A DNA stretch of 64,000 bases from Parvularcula marina (GTDB lineage: Bacteria; Pseudomonadota; Alphaproteobacteria; Caulobacterales; Parvularculaceae): NCBI RefSeq assembly GCF_003399445.1, contig NZ_QUQO01000001.1, positions 2,539,001-2,603,000 of the forward strand, given 5' to 3'. Both the position numbers and the translations under genes were made by a program. Below the pieces are notes generated by a model, which did not search any database, had not been told where the DNA came from, and saw only the letters and a program-made list of their open reading frames with translations. Below are positions 5,230 through 8,271 of the stretch, in pieces (within the stretch, counting starts at the first letter, position 1; the number at the start of each line of letters is the position of its first letter).

Positions 5230-5778
5230 ATGAAGGGTGCCGTGTTCACCGAGCTCTTCGACTATGTCGAGGATGCCCATGGTCCTGAATTTCTTCAGGA
5301 AACGATCGATGCTGCCGACCTGCCCACAAAGGGCGTCTACGCCACGACGGGGACTTATCCGACGTCTGAAATGGTGTCTCTGGTCAGTGTTCTCTCCAAC
5401 AGTTCCGGCATCGCGGTGCCAGACCTCCTCCGAGTCTTCGGCGAGCATCTCTTCGGCCGATTTACCGTTTCCTATCCGGCGCTTTTCGAGGGCTGCGATG
5501 ATGCATTCTCGTTCCTCGCGTCGGTTGAGAATGTCATCCACATGGAAGTGCGTAAGCTTTATCCTGATGCTGAGCTTCCGACATTTGAAACGGCAGTACA
5601 CACGGATACGCATCTCCAGCTTATCTATCGGTCGAGACGGCACATGGGAGACCTCTGCGAAGGTCTGATCAGAGGATGCCTCGCGCATTTCGAGGAAGAG
5701 GCGGTCATCACACGCACGACTCTTGAAGAGAGCCCGGATTCAGTCATCAAGTTTGACATTGAGAAGCAGCCCAAATGA
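5230..5778 (+). CDS. H-NOX heme nitric oxide sensor protein
   Basis: A 182-residue stand-alone H-NOX (HNOB) domain, a cytosolic heme protein that binds nitric oxide. It begins MKGAVFTELFDYVEDAHG, the family's usual N terminus. The proximal heme ligand is His104 in the segment VIHMEVRKLYPDAELP, and the heme-propionate motif YxSxR is complete as Tyr133, Ser135, Arg137. The conserved EGLIRG and HFEEE follow. Length matches stand-alone members. AGGAG lies 10 bases upstream of the ATG. Its stop overlaps the next start (ATGA), so it is translationally coupled to the kinase, matching known H-NOX/kinase operons in which NO-bound H-NOX inhibits the kinase. Whether it also binds oxygen cannot be decided here. 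Confidence 0.93.
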   Translation: MKGAVFTELFDYVEDAHGPEFLQETIDAADLPTKGVYATTGTYPTSEMVSLVSVLSNSSGIAVPDLLRVFGEHLFGRFTVSYPALFEGCDDAFSFLASVENVIHMEVRKLYPDAELPTFETAVHTDTHLQLIYRSRRHMGDLCEGLIRGCLAHFEEEAVITRTTLEESPDSVIKFDIEKQPK

Positions 5779-7145
5779 CAGAAAATATCGATCTTTATAA
5801 GTCTATTGCCGCTCGGGAAAAGGCGAGCCGGAAAGAGGCCGAACGGCTGCTTGAAGAAAAAAGCCGTGAGCTGTTTTCGCAGCAGGAGGCTCTGGAAGTC
5901 TCCACAGCCCATCTGAAAAAGACAGCAACGCTTCTGTCAGAAATCATGCGCGTCGCGCCGGATGGTGTTTACATGATTTCGTCCTCACTGAAGCTCCATG
6001 ACTGCAATGCTGCGGCCACGGAGCAGTTGAAGATGAGCCGCGGCGAGATGTGCGGGCATGAGGCGGAGGAGTATTTCCCCGGCATCACGAGGGTGCTTGC
6101 AGACGCAGGGGACGGCTATTTCTCACTGGAACAGTTCAGGGTTCGCTCGGCTGACGGCTCATCCTTCCCGGCAGAGGTTAGGGGCTATCATGGCCCGATC
6201 GGTTCAGAGCGGATCTATCTTCTCTTCGTTCACGATATTGCAAAACGTGTAGCTTCTGAAAAGAAGCGTACACGCATTGAACAACAGCTCGACGAAGCGC
6301 GGCGCCTGGAGGCAATCGGAGCGCTTTCGGCTGGCATTGCGCATGAGATCAATACGCCGATCCAATTCATTGGCGACAATCTCGCCTTCCTTCAGGATGC
6401 GCTGAAAAAAATTCACCTATCCTGGCGGAAATATGAAGAGCTTCGCTGCGCCGTGGCAGAGGACGGGGGGTACCAGGATCAAGTCAACGTCATCGATGAG
6501 CATAGCGCAGAAGTTCGGCTGGACGTTCTGGTCAAGGATATCTTCGAATGCCTTCAGGAAAGCCAGGAAGGGATTGCGCAGGTGCGCGACATTGTCCTGC
6601 TGATGAAAGAATTTTCGCACCCGGGATCTGGCGACAGTGATAATGTCGATATCAATCGGTTGATCCGTAACTCGCTTAATATCTCCAAGAGAAATATCGA
6701 TTGCGGCATCATCGTCGAGCAGGATCTGTCTGAAAACCTTCCTGAGTTGAACTGCCGGCAGAGCCAATTGCAACAGGTGATCCTCAATCTCGTCCTGAAT
6801 GCGGTCGATGCGATCAAGGACAAGCGAGAAGAGGGCGGAAAAATCCGTATCTCAACGAAACCTGTGGATGGCTTTGTGCAGATCCGTATCAGCGACAATG
6901 GCGGCGGCGTGCCGCAATCGCTGCGTCAGAAGATCTTCGATCCGTTCTTCACCACCAAGCCGGTCGGCAAGGGAACCGGGCAGGGGCTGGCGCTGGCGAA
7001 AGACGTTATTGTCAAAGGGCACAGTGGCCGCCTGACACTGGTTGATGAGCCGCCATTCGATACGACCTTCCTGATCGAGTTGCCAATGGCGCATGTCATG
7101 GAAGAAATCATTTCTGCGGAGGAACATGATGTCACAGCAGCGTAG
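5775..7145 (+). CDS. H-NOX-associated soluble PAS sensor histidine kinase
   Basis: A 456-residue cytosolic kinase with no transmembrane helix. Order: N-terminal coiled coil with the ARKEAERLLEEKSREL type segment often seen in H-NOX-associated proteins (residues about 10-45), a PAS domain (about 50-160), then a histidine kinase core with phospho-acceptor His190 in AGIAHEINTP, a long inserted helical stretch, N-box NLVLNAVDAI, G1 ISDNGGGVP, F-box FDPFFTTKPVGKGTG and G2 QGLALAKDV. All catalytic boxes appear intact. It overlaps the H-NOX gene by 4 bp and the next gene by 17 bp. By analogy with characterised systems it is the direct partner controlled by the H-NOX protein; its phosphotransfer target may be the next gene product. 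Confidence 0.92.
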   Translation: MTENIDLYKSIAAREKASRKEAERLLEEKSRELFSQQEALEVSTAHLKKTATLLSEIMRVAPDGVYMISSSLKLHDCNAAATEQLKMSRGEMCGHEAEEYFPGITRVLADAGDGYFSLEQFRVRSADGSSFPAEVRGYHGPIGSERIYLLFVHDIAKRVASEKKRTRIEQQLDEARRLEAIGALSAGIAHEINTPIQFIGDNLAFLQDALKKIHLSWRKYEELRCAVAEDGGYQDQVNVIDEHSAEVRLDVLVKDIFECLQESQEGIAQVRDIVLLMKEFSHPGSGDSDNVDINRLIRNSLNISKRNIDCGIIVEQDLSENLPELNCRQSQLQQVILNLVLNAVDAIKDKREEGGKIRISTKPVDGFVQIRISDNGGGVPQSLRQKIFDPFFTTKPVGKGTGQGLALAKDVIVKGHSGRLTLVDEPPFDTTFLIELPMAHVMEEIISAEEHDVTAA

Positions 7146-8271
7146 CAAAGTTCTTCTTGTTGATGACGAACCCAGATTGCTGTCCGCCCTGCGCCGGCGG
7201 CTGGCGAGTGATTTTGATATTCTGACGGCAGAAAGCGGTCCGCTGGCACTCGATATTCTTGCGACGGATGAAGAGGTCGGCATTGTCGTTGCGGACATGC
7301 AGATGCCGGAGATGAATGGCATCGAGCTTCTGACGCGATTGCGTGAAGAGTATCCGCAGATCCGGCGGATCATGCTGACCGGTAACTCCGACCAGGAAAC
7401 CGCGATTGCGGCCATCAATGAAGGCGCCGTCATGCGCTTTTTGCGCAAGCCTTGTGATGCGGATGAGCTTCGGAAGATCCTCAATCAGGGATTTGAAGAA
7501 CTCAAATTCATGAGCCAGGGCAGTATTGAGGGTCAGAAAGAAGACACGACCGAGGCGGATCATGCCTCCACCCGCCGGGCGTTCATCAATCTGCTGAATG
7601 CGGAGCTTTCGACGCCCGTCAGCGATCTGGTTCGGGCGGTGACCGAGTTGTCCGATGCTGATGACGCCTTTGATCCCCTATCGACGCTGACGCGCGTGCG
7701 GGATCGCGGCGAATATATGCTGATGCTGGTCGGACGCCTGATCGAATTTGCCCGCCTGCCGCATCTCTCAGAAAAAGACGATACGTCGCCGCATTGTGAG
7801 ATCGTCAGCATTGTCGCTGACGAAGTCGAGCAGCTTCGCGGACTGGCGAATGAGAAGAAAGTCACGCTCTCACTCGATGCCCGCCGCCGGAAGGCGGCAG
7901 CTCTTGCCAAGGGACAGGAAGTTCGCTTGGCACTCCGTGAGCTGATCGAAAATGCGATCAAGTTCTCGCATCGCGGGGAGCATGTGAGCGTCCTGCTTCA
8001 TGTTGAACAGGATGAAGTGCGGATCATGGTTGCGGATTCGGGCAGGGGGCTGACGGAGTCGGTCGCGCATGTGGCGAACTCGCCGCTTTATGTCGACAAG
8101 GATGGCCACGCCAAGCTGCATGAAGGCATGGGCTTTGGGCTGGCACTCGTCTCGACGATCGCCAAGCTCAATCACGCGAAATTCCATATTGCCCCGCGCG
8201 AGGGCGGCGGGACTTCGGCCGCCATCGGCTTCCGTCGGCCGGTCACCACGCAGGCGACAAATCTGGGCTAA
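7129..8271 (+). CDS. Receiver domain fused to a histidine kinase ATPase core lacking the phospho-acceptor His
   Basis: A 380-residue protein. Residues 1-125 are a CheY-like receiver (VLLVDDEP, phospho-acceptor Asp56 in VVADMQMPEMNG, MLTGNSD, LRKPCD with the conserved Lys). Residues about 145-210 resemble a HisKA dimerisation helix pair but the H-box reads NAELSTPV, with Ala158 where the His of HELRTP would be. Residues 230-375 form an HATPase domain with N-box ELIENAIKFSHRG (Asn275), G1 VADSGRGL and G2 GMGFGLALVS. So ATP binding looks preserved while autophosphorylation on the usual His cannot occur. The second of two adjacent ATGs (7129) is best spaced from GGAGGA at 7118; it overlaps the kinase gene by 17 bp. 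Likely the output or modulator of the H-NOX system; mechanism unknown. Confidence 0.85.
   Translation: MSQQRSKVLLVDDEPRLLSALRRRLASDFDILTAESGPLALDILATDEEVGIVVADMQMPEMNGIELLTRLREEYPQIRRIMLTGNSDQETAIAAINEGAVMRFLRKPCDADELRKILNQGFEELKFMSQGSIEGQKEDTTEADHASTRRAFINLLNAELSTPVSDLVRAVTELSDADDAFDPLSTLTRVRDRGEYMLMLVGRLIEFARLPHLSEKDDTSPHCEIVSIVADEVEQLRGLANEKKVTLSLDARRRKAAALAKGQEVRLALRELIENAIKFSHRGEHVSVLLHVEQDEVRIMVADSGRGLTESVAHVANSPLYVDKDGHAKLHEGMGFGLALVSTIAKLNHAKFHIAPREGGGTSAAIGFRRPVTTQATNLG

Follow-up and report, generated by a model that had tools for sequence, protein, structure and literature searches.

The window analysed here is a 64,000 nt stretch of the genome of Parvularcula marina (GCF_003399445.1, contig NZ_QUQO01000001.1). 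A predicted operon on its plus strand at 5230-8271 encodes an H-NOX (haem NO/O2-binding) protein, a PAS histidine kinase and a receiver-DHp-ATPase protein. The third protein is the subject of this analysis, as alanine stands at the position of its phospho-acceptor histidine. From the coordinates the H-NOX and kinase genes overlap by 4 bases and the kinase and third genes by 17 bases. The genes are as follows.

5230..5778, plus strand: H-NOX protein, 182 amino acids, PF07700 (HNOB) E 3.6e-37.
5775..7145, plus strand: PAS-HisKA-HATPase histidine kinase, 456 amino acids, HATPase_c E 9e-23, H-box GIAHEINTPI intact.
7129..8271, plus strand: His-less receiver-DHp-HATPase protein, 380 amino acids, Response_reg E 8.3e-25, HATPase_c E 2.1e-15.

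The start of the third gene was taken as the ATG at 7129, from which its residues are numbered; in-frame ATGs are also present at 7126 and 7093. The features of the third protein are as follows.

7150..7482, plus strand: receiver domain (Pfam Response_reg), residues 8-118, with D12, D13, D56, T84 and K107.
7564..7794, plus strand: DHp region, residues 146-222, used for the analysis of rates by branch.
7600..7602, plus strand: GCG codon of Ala158 at the phospho-acceptor His position, which is His in 12/12 family relatives.
7603..7614, plus strand: E159-L160-S161-T162, with E159 (H+1) and T162 (H+4) of the H-box kept.
7918..8226, plus strand: HATPase_c (CA) domain, residues 264-366, with N275, D303/G305/G307 and G333/G335/G337 kept and F320L in the F-box.

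The H-box of the third protein reads NLLNAELSTPVSD. The codon confirmed the placing of Ala158 at the His position in the initial annotation. Sequencing error, already thought unlikely there, was ruled out; CAT or CAC to GCG is three base changes and any Ala codon requires at least two, so a single error cannot explain Ala158. An alternative acceptor in the dimerisation helix was also ruled out, with no His in residues 146-211 (His is found at 145, 212, 222, 281 and beyond). No Pfam HisKA match was obtained for the third protein at E up to 1, and without a phospho-acceptor His in the H-box it does not qualify as a HisKA kinase. The receiver was intact around Asp56 as first described, with residues presumed to form the acidic pocket (D12/D13), the phospho-Asp (D56), the Thr/Ser (T84) and the Lys (K107) all kept. 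The description of the ATP site as intact-looking held at the motif level for the N, G1 and G2 motifs but not for the F-box.

The H-box was HELRTPL or HELKTPL in all 12 family relatives, and AELSTPV was found in the window row alone. Pfam HisKA matched all three relatives tested (E 1.7e-15 to 7.8e-13). When 385 genomes of the class were searched with the protein of relative G041, four full-length receiver-HisKA-HATPase proteins were returned besides the window's own; these possible orthologues have 29-33% identity and all four carry the His. As the His is present in the 12 family relatives and in the four distant full-length matches, it was lost in the window copy, a lineage-specific loss in an N-terminal-receiver kinase.

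Of 62 genomes searched in the GTDB family, 13 carry the third gene, its own among them (E 1e-40). The same 13 genomes were recovered from 398 genomes of the order, an even draw from a larger group, with no match outside the window's own family at E 1e-35. Identity to the 12 others was 38-46% over nearly the full length, and two of these relatives are Parvularcula and Marinicaulis metagenome-assembled genomes. The best other match in the window's own genome (3.5e-12) covered the receiver only. The same kinase gene lies directly upstream in 13/13 genomes; this and the full-length homology place the third protein in the family's group of N-terminal-receiver kinases. The three-gene order, which the initial annotation had proposed to look for elsewhere, was present in seven of the 13 (the window genome G000, G010, G011, G013, G014, G015 and G041), the H-NOX gene of G013 starting with GTG. 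No H-NOX match was found in the other six, two of which are incomplete (G002 at 84% and G042 at 89%). With the upstream kinase in 13/13 and H-NOX in 7/13, the pair of kinase and third gene forms the stable unit, with H-NOX as one of its inputs.

A wider search for related loci covered the best 80 of 204 loci. The only two close full-length relatives among these appear to be G023 and G031 and are counted once. Viewed by eye, the other alignable matches among these 80 were either receivers with a different output or ordinary kinases whose H-box is intact. H-NOX gave 68 matches outside the family, of which 40 were examined with approximately 6 kb downstream (two end at contig ends), plus three of genus g37. 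A domain search found no receiver-first HisKA-HATPase protein downstream of H-NOX in these 40 of 68 loci. In 22 of the 40 a frame matched DHp and had its H-box intact (one of these, L198, with DHp only), and 18 were without a kinase frame. Eight outside-family loci were viewed by eye; seven had an adjoining GGDEF- or EAL-like protein and the eighth was L198.

For the comparison of rates, the other domains together with the upstream kinase (aligned with its 12 orthologues) supplied the reference branch lengths, and the window branch was rescaled for each region. The best fit made the window branch approximately 3 times longer in DHp (77 columns), with a likelihood-ratio test statistic (LRT) of 23.58. 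No significant excess rate was found on this branch in CA (LRT 0.92), the receiver (0.01), the upstream kinase core (0.01) or its PAS region (1.98). The LRT was 26.05 for the alpha-1 helix, where the best multiplier of 6 was the top of the grid, and 3.13 for alpha-2. Without the His column and gap columns the DHp value was still 21.10. Among 12 other terminal branches an LRT above 4 occurred in two, G041 (5.28) and G011 (4.78), both slower, and the largest faster value was 3.42 in G014. Simulation of 100 alignments with the reference branch lengths (multipliers 1 to 4) gave a maximum LRT of 9.90, and none reached the observed DHp value. The window branch is faster in DHp only, and so the rates do not point to general or gene-wide decay. 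The initial annotation had held that homologues with a normal H-box might expose this copy as a decayed gene; such homologues are the rule, but that decay was not seen.

The window row had residues unseen in any relative at 20 of 30 alpha-1 positions and 11 of 29 alpha-2 positions, compared with 0-4 in the other rows for each helix. These changes in alpha-1 were not limited to surface-type positions, affecting 8/13 hydrophobic-or-Ala and 12/17 other columns. Positions that are always V, I, L, M or F in the relatives stayed hydrophobic in 9/10 cases in alpha-1 and 9/9 in alpha-2. Among the ten invariant alpha-1 columns A151, F152, E159, L160, T162 and P163 were kept. The DHp is probably a changed but still folded dimerisation helix, attached to receiver and ATPase domains that appear to have stayed useful. 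In HisKA proteins the His sits on alpha-1, and this helix contacts the response regulator. The altered helix therefore suggests that the partner of the third protein, or its mode of contact, may have changed.

The third protein may thus be a pseudokinase that arose, in this lineage alone, from a histidine kinase with an N-terminal receiver. It would be gated by that receiver and act on another two-component protein, either through contact or by dephosphorylating it. This reading is given an even chance of being correct. Several observations weigh against it. The third gene was absent from all nine other genomes of the same genus searched at E 1e-40. In columns invariant in the other 12 rows, the window row was changed at 17/87 (receiver 5/47, DHp 7/16, CA 5/24). 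The next most changed rows were G041, with 6 in all (4/23 in CA), and G031, with 5. All 12 relatives have the F-box Phe of the ATP lid, which is replaced by Leu320 in the window protein. In the joint tree the window branch is long, at 0.94, and the root may lie on it; recent decay at the tip could thus go unseen. The tree topology was built with DHp included and has one node with a support of 69; only the reference branch lengths were obtained without DHp. The absence of excess rate is a relative measure and no direct proof of selection.

The same divergence could belong to a degenerating gene or phosphate sink, in which only the receiver matters, as terminal acceptor for the kinase, while the C-terminal half decays. 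The window row is the most diverged of the 13, its F-box is lost, and its Pfam HATPase_c score is 57.6 bits compared to 66.3-74.9 in three tested relatives. However, the frame is open over 380 codons, and CA has no significant excess rate on the branch where DHp diverged far, so CA seems to have outlived the loss of the His. This explanation is considered unlikely.

For the receiver-gated pseudokinase we infer the following biochemical steps. H-NOX would control autophosphorylation of the middle kinase, by analogy with known systems, where NO-bound H-NOX inhibits the autophosphorylation of its kinase (PMC8738867). The middle kinase, which has its H-box, would phosphorylate Asp56 of the third protein, as gene order and intact motifs suggest. 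Phosphorylation of Asp56 may then change the DHp-ATPase half, with nucleotide binding by CA predicted to be part of the switch. The model for this is ExsG of Agrobacterium tumefaciens, whose attached kinase core is inhibited when receiver phosphorylation stabilises a compact conformation, and in which bound nucleotide shifts the protein towards the open one (PMC3899027). As the sequence itself implies, without an acceptor His the third protein can neither autophosphorylate nor transfer phosphate by the canonical route. Its output would be the contact or dephosphorylation proposed above.

The initial annotation had proposed a phosphorylation-gated pseudokinase, with sequestration or control of the H-NOX kinase as its possible role, and a new signalling shape. 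The pseudokinase is partly supported overall; it fits the missing acceptor His, the intact receiver, the mostly kept ATP motifs and the divergence limited to DHp. The shape is not new, as an N-terminal receiver controlling a kinase core is known from ExsG (PMC3899027) and the relatives share the layout with the His.

Thr162 and E159 are both kept, and the sequence does not decide between a contact and a phosphatase output. A dedicated phosphatase would result if a bifunctional HisKA enzyme, on losing the His, had given up its kinase activity and retained receiver-gated dephosphorylation of a response regulator. Retention of Thr162 (H+4) in a helix so strongly changed would suit this. In CrdS the H371A variant keeps most phosphatase activity and Asn or Thr is required at H+4; the regulator half-life was 53.5 min in the absence of CrdS, 2.6 min with H371A and <1 min with the wild-type protein (PMC3510030). 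E159 is needed in CrdS only for kinase activity and is kept here too, so that retention of Thr162 is not specific for a phosphatase, and PleC H610A loses both activities (PMC3510030). In addition, a response regulator would dock on alpha-1, which is strongly changed. A dedicated phosphatase is thus rated as quite improbable.

The upstream part of the operon is consistent with a nitric oxide input. The H-NOX gene adjoins a histidine kinase gene, as expected of an H-NOX signalling operon. The H-NOX protein reads VIHMEVRKLYPDAELP and YRSRR, which are taken to be the proximal-His region and the YxSxR motif, respectively. PAS and HisKA matches in the middle kinase were under the Pfam cut-offs. A second H-NOX operon of the same genome, outside the window, contains the following.

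G000:C1:903267-905034, minus strand: second H-NOX operon (locus L132).
G000:C1:904555-905034, minus strand: second H-NOX of the window genome.
G000:C1:903267-904484, minus strand: hybrid kinase after the second H-NOX, 406 amino acids, HisKA E 3.1e-13 (MLSHELKTPL), HATPase_c E 5e-9, and a receiver.

This hybrid is without the G1 Asp and the G2 GxGLGL loop, both of which are kept in the 10 usable rows of 11 aligned family hybrids, and is perhaps unable to use ATP. With its His kept and its ATP-site motifs lost it is the mirror image of the third protein of the window.

Other H-NOX neighbours were also reduced. In G052, of the window's genus, H-NOX is followed by a 251-amino-acid DHp-receiver protein (RNINHEFRTPM) without an ATPase domain (L129:3080-3832, minus strand). 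In all four genomes of genus g37 that had a match in the H-NOX search (L210, L211, L212 and L198) H-NOX is followed by a short coiled-coil and DHp-only protein (TSINHEFRTPL), in which no ATPase domain was found. One of these was tested and had a HisKA score of 25.0 bits, just under the cut-off. The g37 protein is a candidate for a phosphotransfer or phosphatase role linked to H-NOX. Proteins with HisKA but no HATPase are on record, 1556 of 42417 in SMART (PMC3591291). From these architectures, H-NOX partners in the order lost one kinase half more than once. In G012 (L127:2869-4317, minus strand) the protein encoded after H-NOX is no kinase but has GAF (E 3e-20) and Guanylate_cyc (E 2.1e-28) domains; the pair is possibly a two-gene bacterial counterpart of an NO-linked cyclase.

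The third protein could instead be one half of a split kinase whose ATPase domain phosphorylates, in trans, a His carried by a different protein, such as the second H-NOX-linked kinase. The second hybrid has the complementary pattern (MLSHELKTPL intact, G1 Asp replaced and G2 loop missing), and a split kinase has been characterised in Rhodobacter sphaeroides, CheA3/CheA4 (PMC3591291). In that precedent separate proteins carry the His and the ATPase function, but it is of CheA type and was shown experimentally, whereas the window case is one of sequence complementarity alone. G052 has its CA-less protein and no match to the window gene. The four g37 genomes have DHp-only proteins, while all order-search matches to the third gene were in the window's family. 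Such proteins thus manage without the ATPase of the third protein, and a split kinase is not required. Furthermore, the DHp of the third protein diverged in the very helix needing a match, and the ATPase domain of the second hybrid is still over the Pfam cut-off (37.0 bits compared to 26.4). A split-kinase role is therefore very unlikely. It would be more speculative still to propose that proteins of the two H-NOX operons form a receiver-gated split histidine kinase, active only when both NO-sensing branches meet.

A survey of kinases in the window's genome covered 30/35 HATPase_c and 25/25 HisKA matches in 32 frames. Ten frames were without the H-box pattern, and the five of these that were examined had one Tyr and four His (remaining: L242, L246, L248, L252 and L253). 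A frame with HISYQLRNPL looks DivL-like and is separate from the window protein. A 296-amino-acid HisKA protein at G000:C2:378713-379399 (L266) has SMNHELRTPL intact and an ATPase domain under the Pfam cut-off (25.7 bits).

DivL carries Tyr in place of the His and, unlike the window protein, is not known to have an N-terminal receiver. It resembles the window protein as a kinase fold called a pseudokinase and thought to act on another kinase, CckA (PMC4853435). ExsG likewise has a receiver before a soluble kinase core and was proposed to link an upstream sensor kinase to a downstream regulator (PMC3899027). The likeness is in layout only; ExsG is an HWE kinase autophosphorylating on His151, whereas the relatives of the window protein carry HisKA and the window copy is without the His. 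HnoD of Shewanella oneidensis is a degenerate response regulator under an H-NOX-linked kinase and acts by allostery (PMC6335343, PMC8738867), but it has a degenerate output domain for turnover of cyclic di-GMP where the window protein has a kinase core. The conserved His was also reported missing from the hybrid kinase CCNA_03265 of Caulobacter, with the receiver Asp kept; its authors put forward the nearby His151 as a candidate, and H-NOX is not mentioned in the available part of that source (PMC11481889).

A literature search, conducted largely without subscription papers, returned nothing on topic for H-NOX with pseudokinase, judged by titles and the starts of abstracts, and nothing for H-NOX with Parvularcula. 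There are known examples of receiver-first kinases, of pseudokinases and of degenerate H-NOX response regulators, and the window protein is a variant rather than a new kind of regulator. It provides a comparative case of a histidine kinase turning pseudokinase in a conserved gene setting, with 12 relatives that have the His and one copy without it, and the rate signature shows which domain changed. A direct test is possible of whether the ATPase and receiver halves are kept for signalling without phosphotransfer. NO acting through H-NOX is the predicted input for such a test, and the His-bearing protein of a relative can serve as its control.

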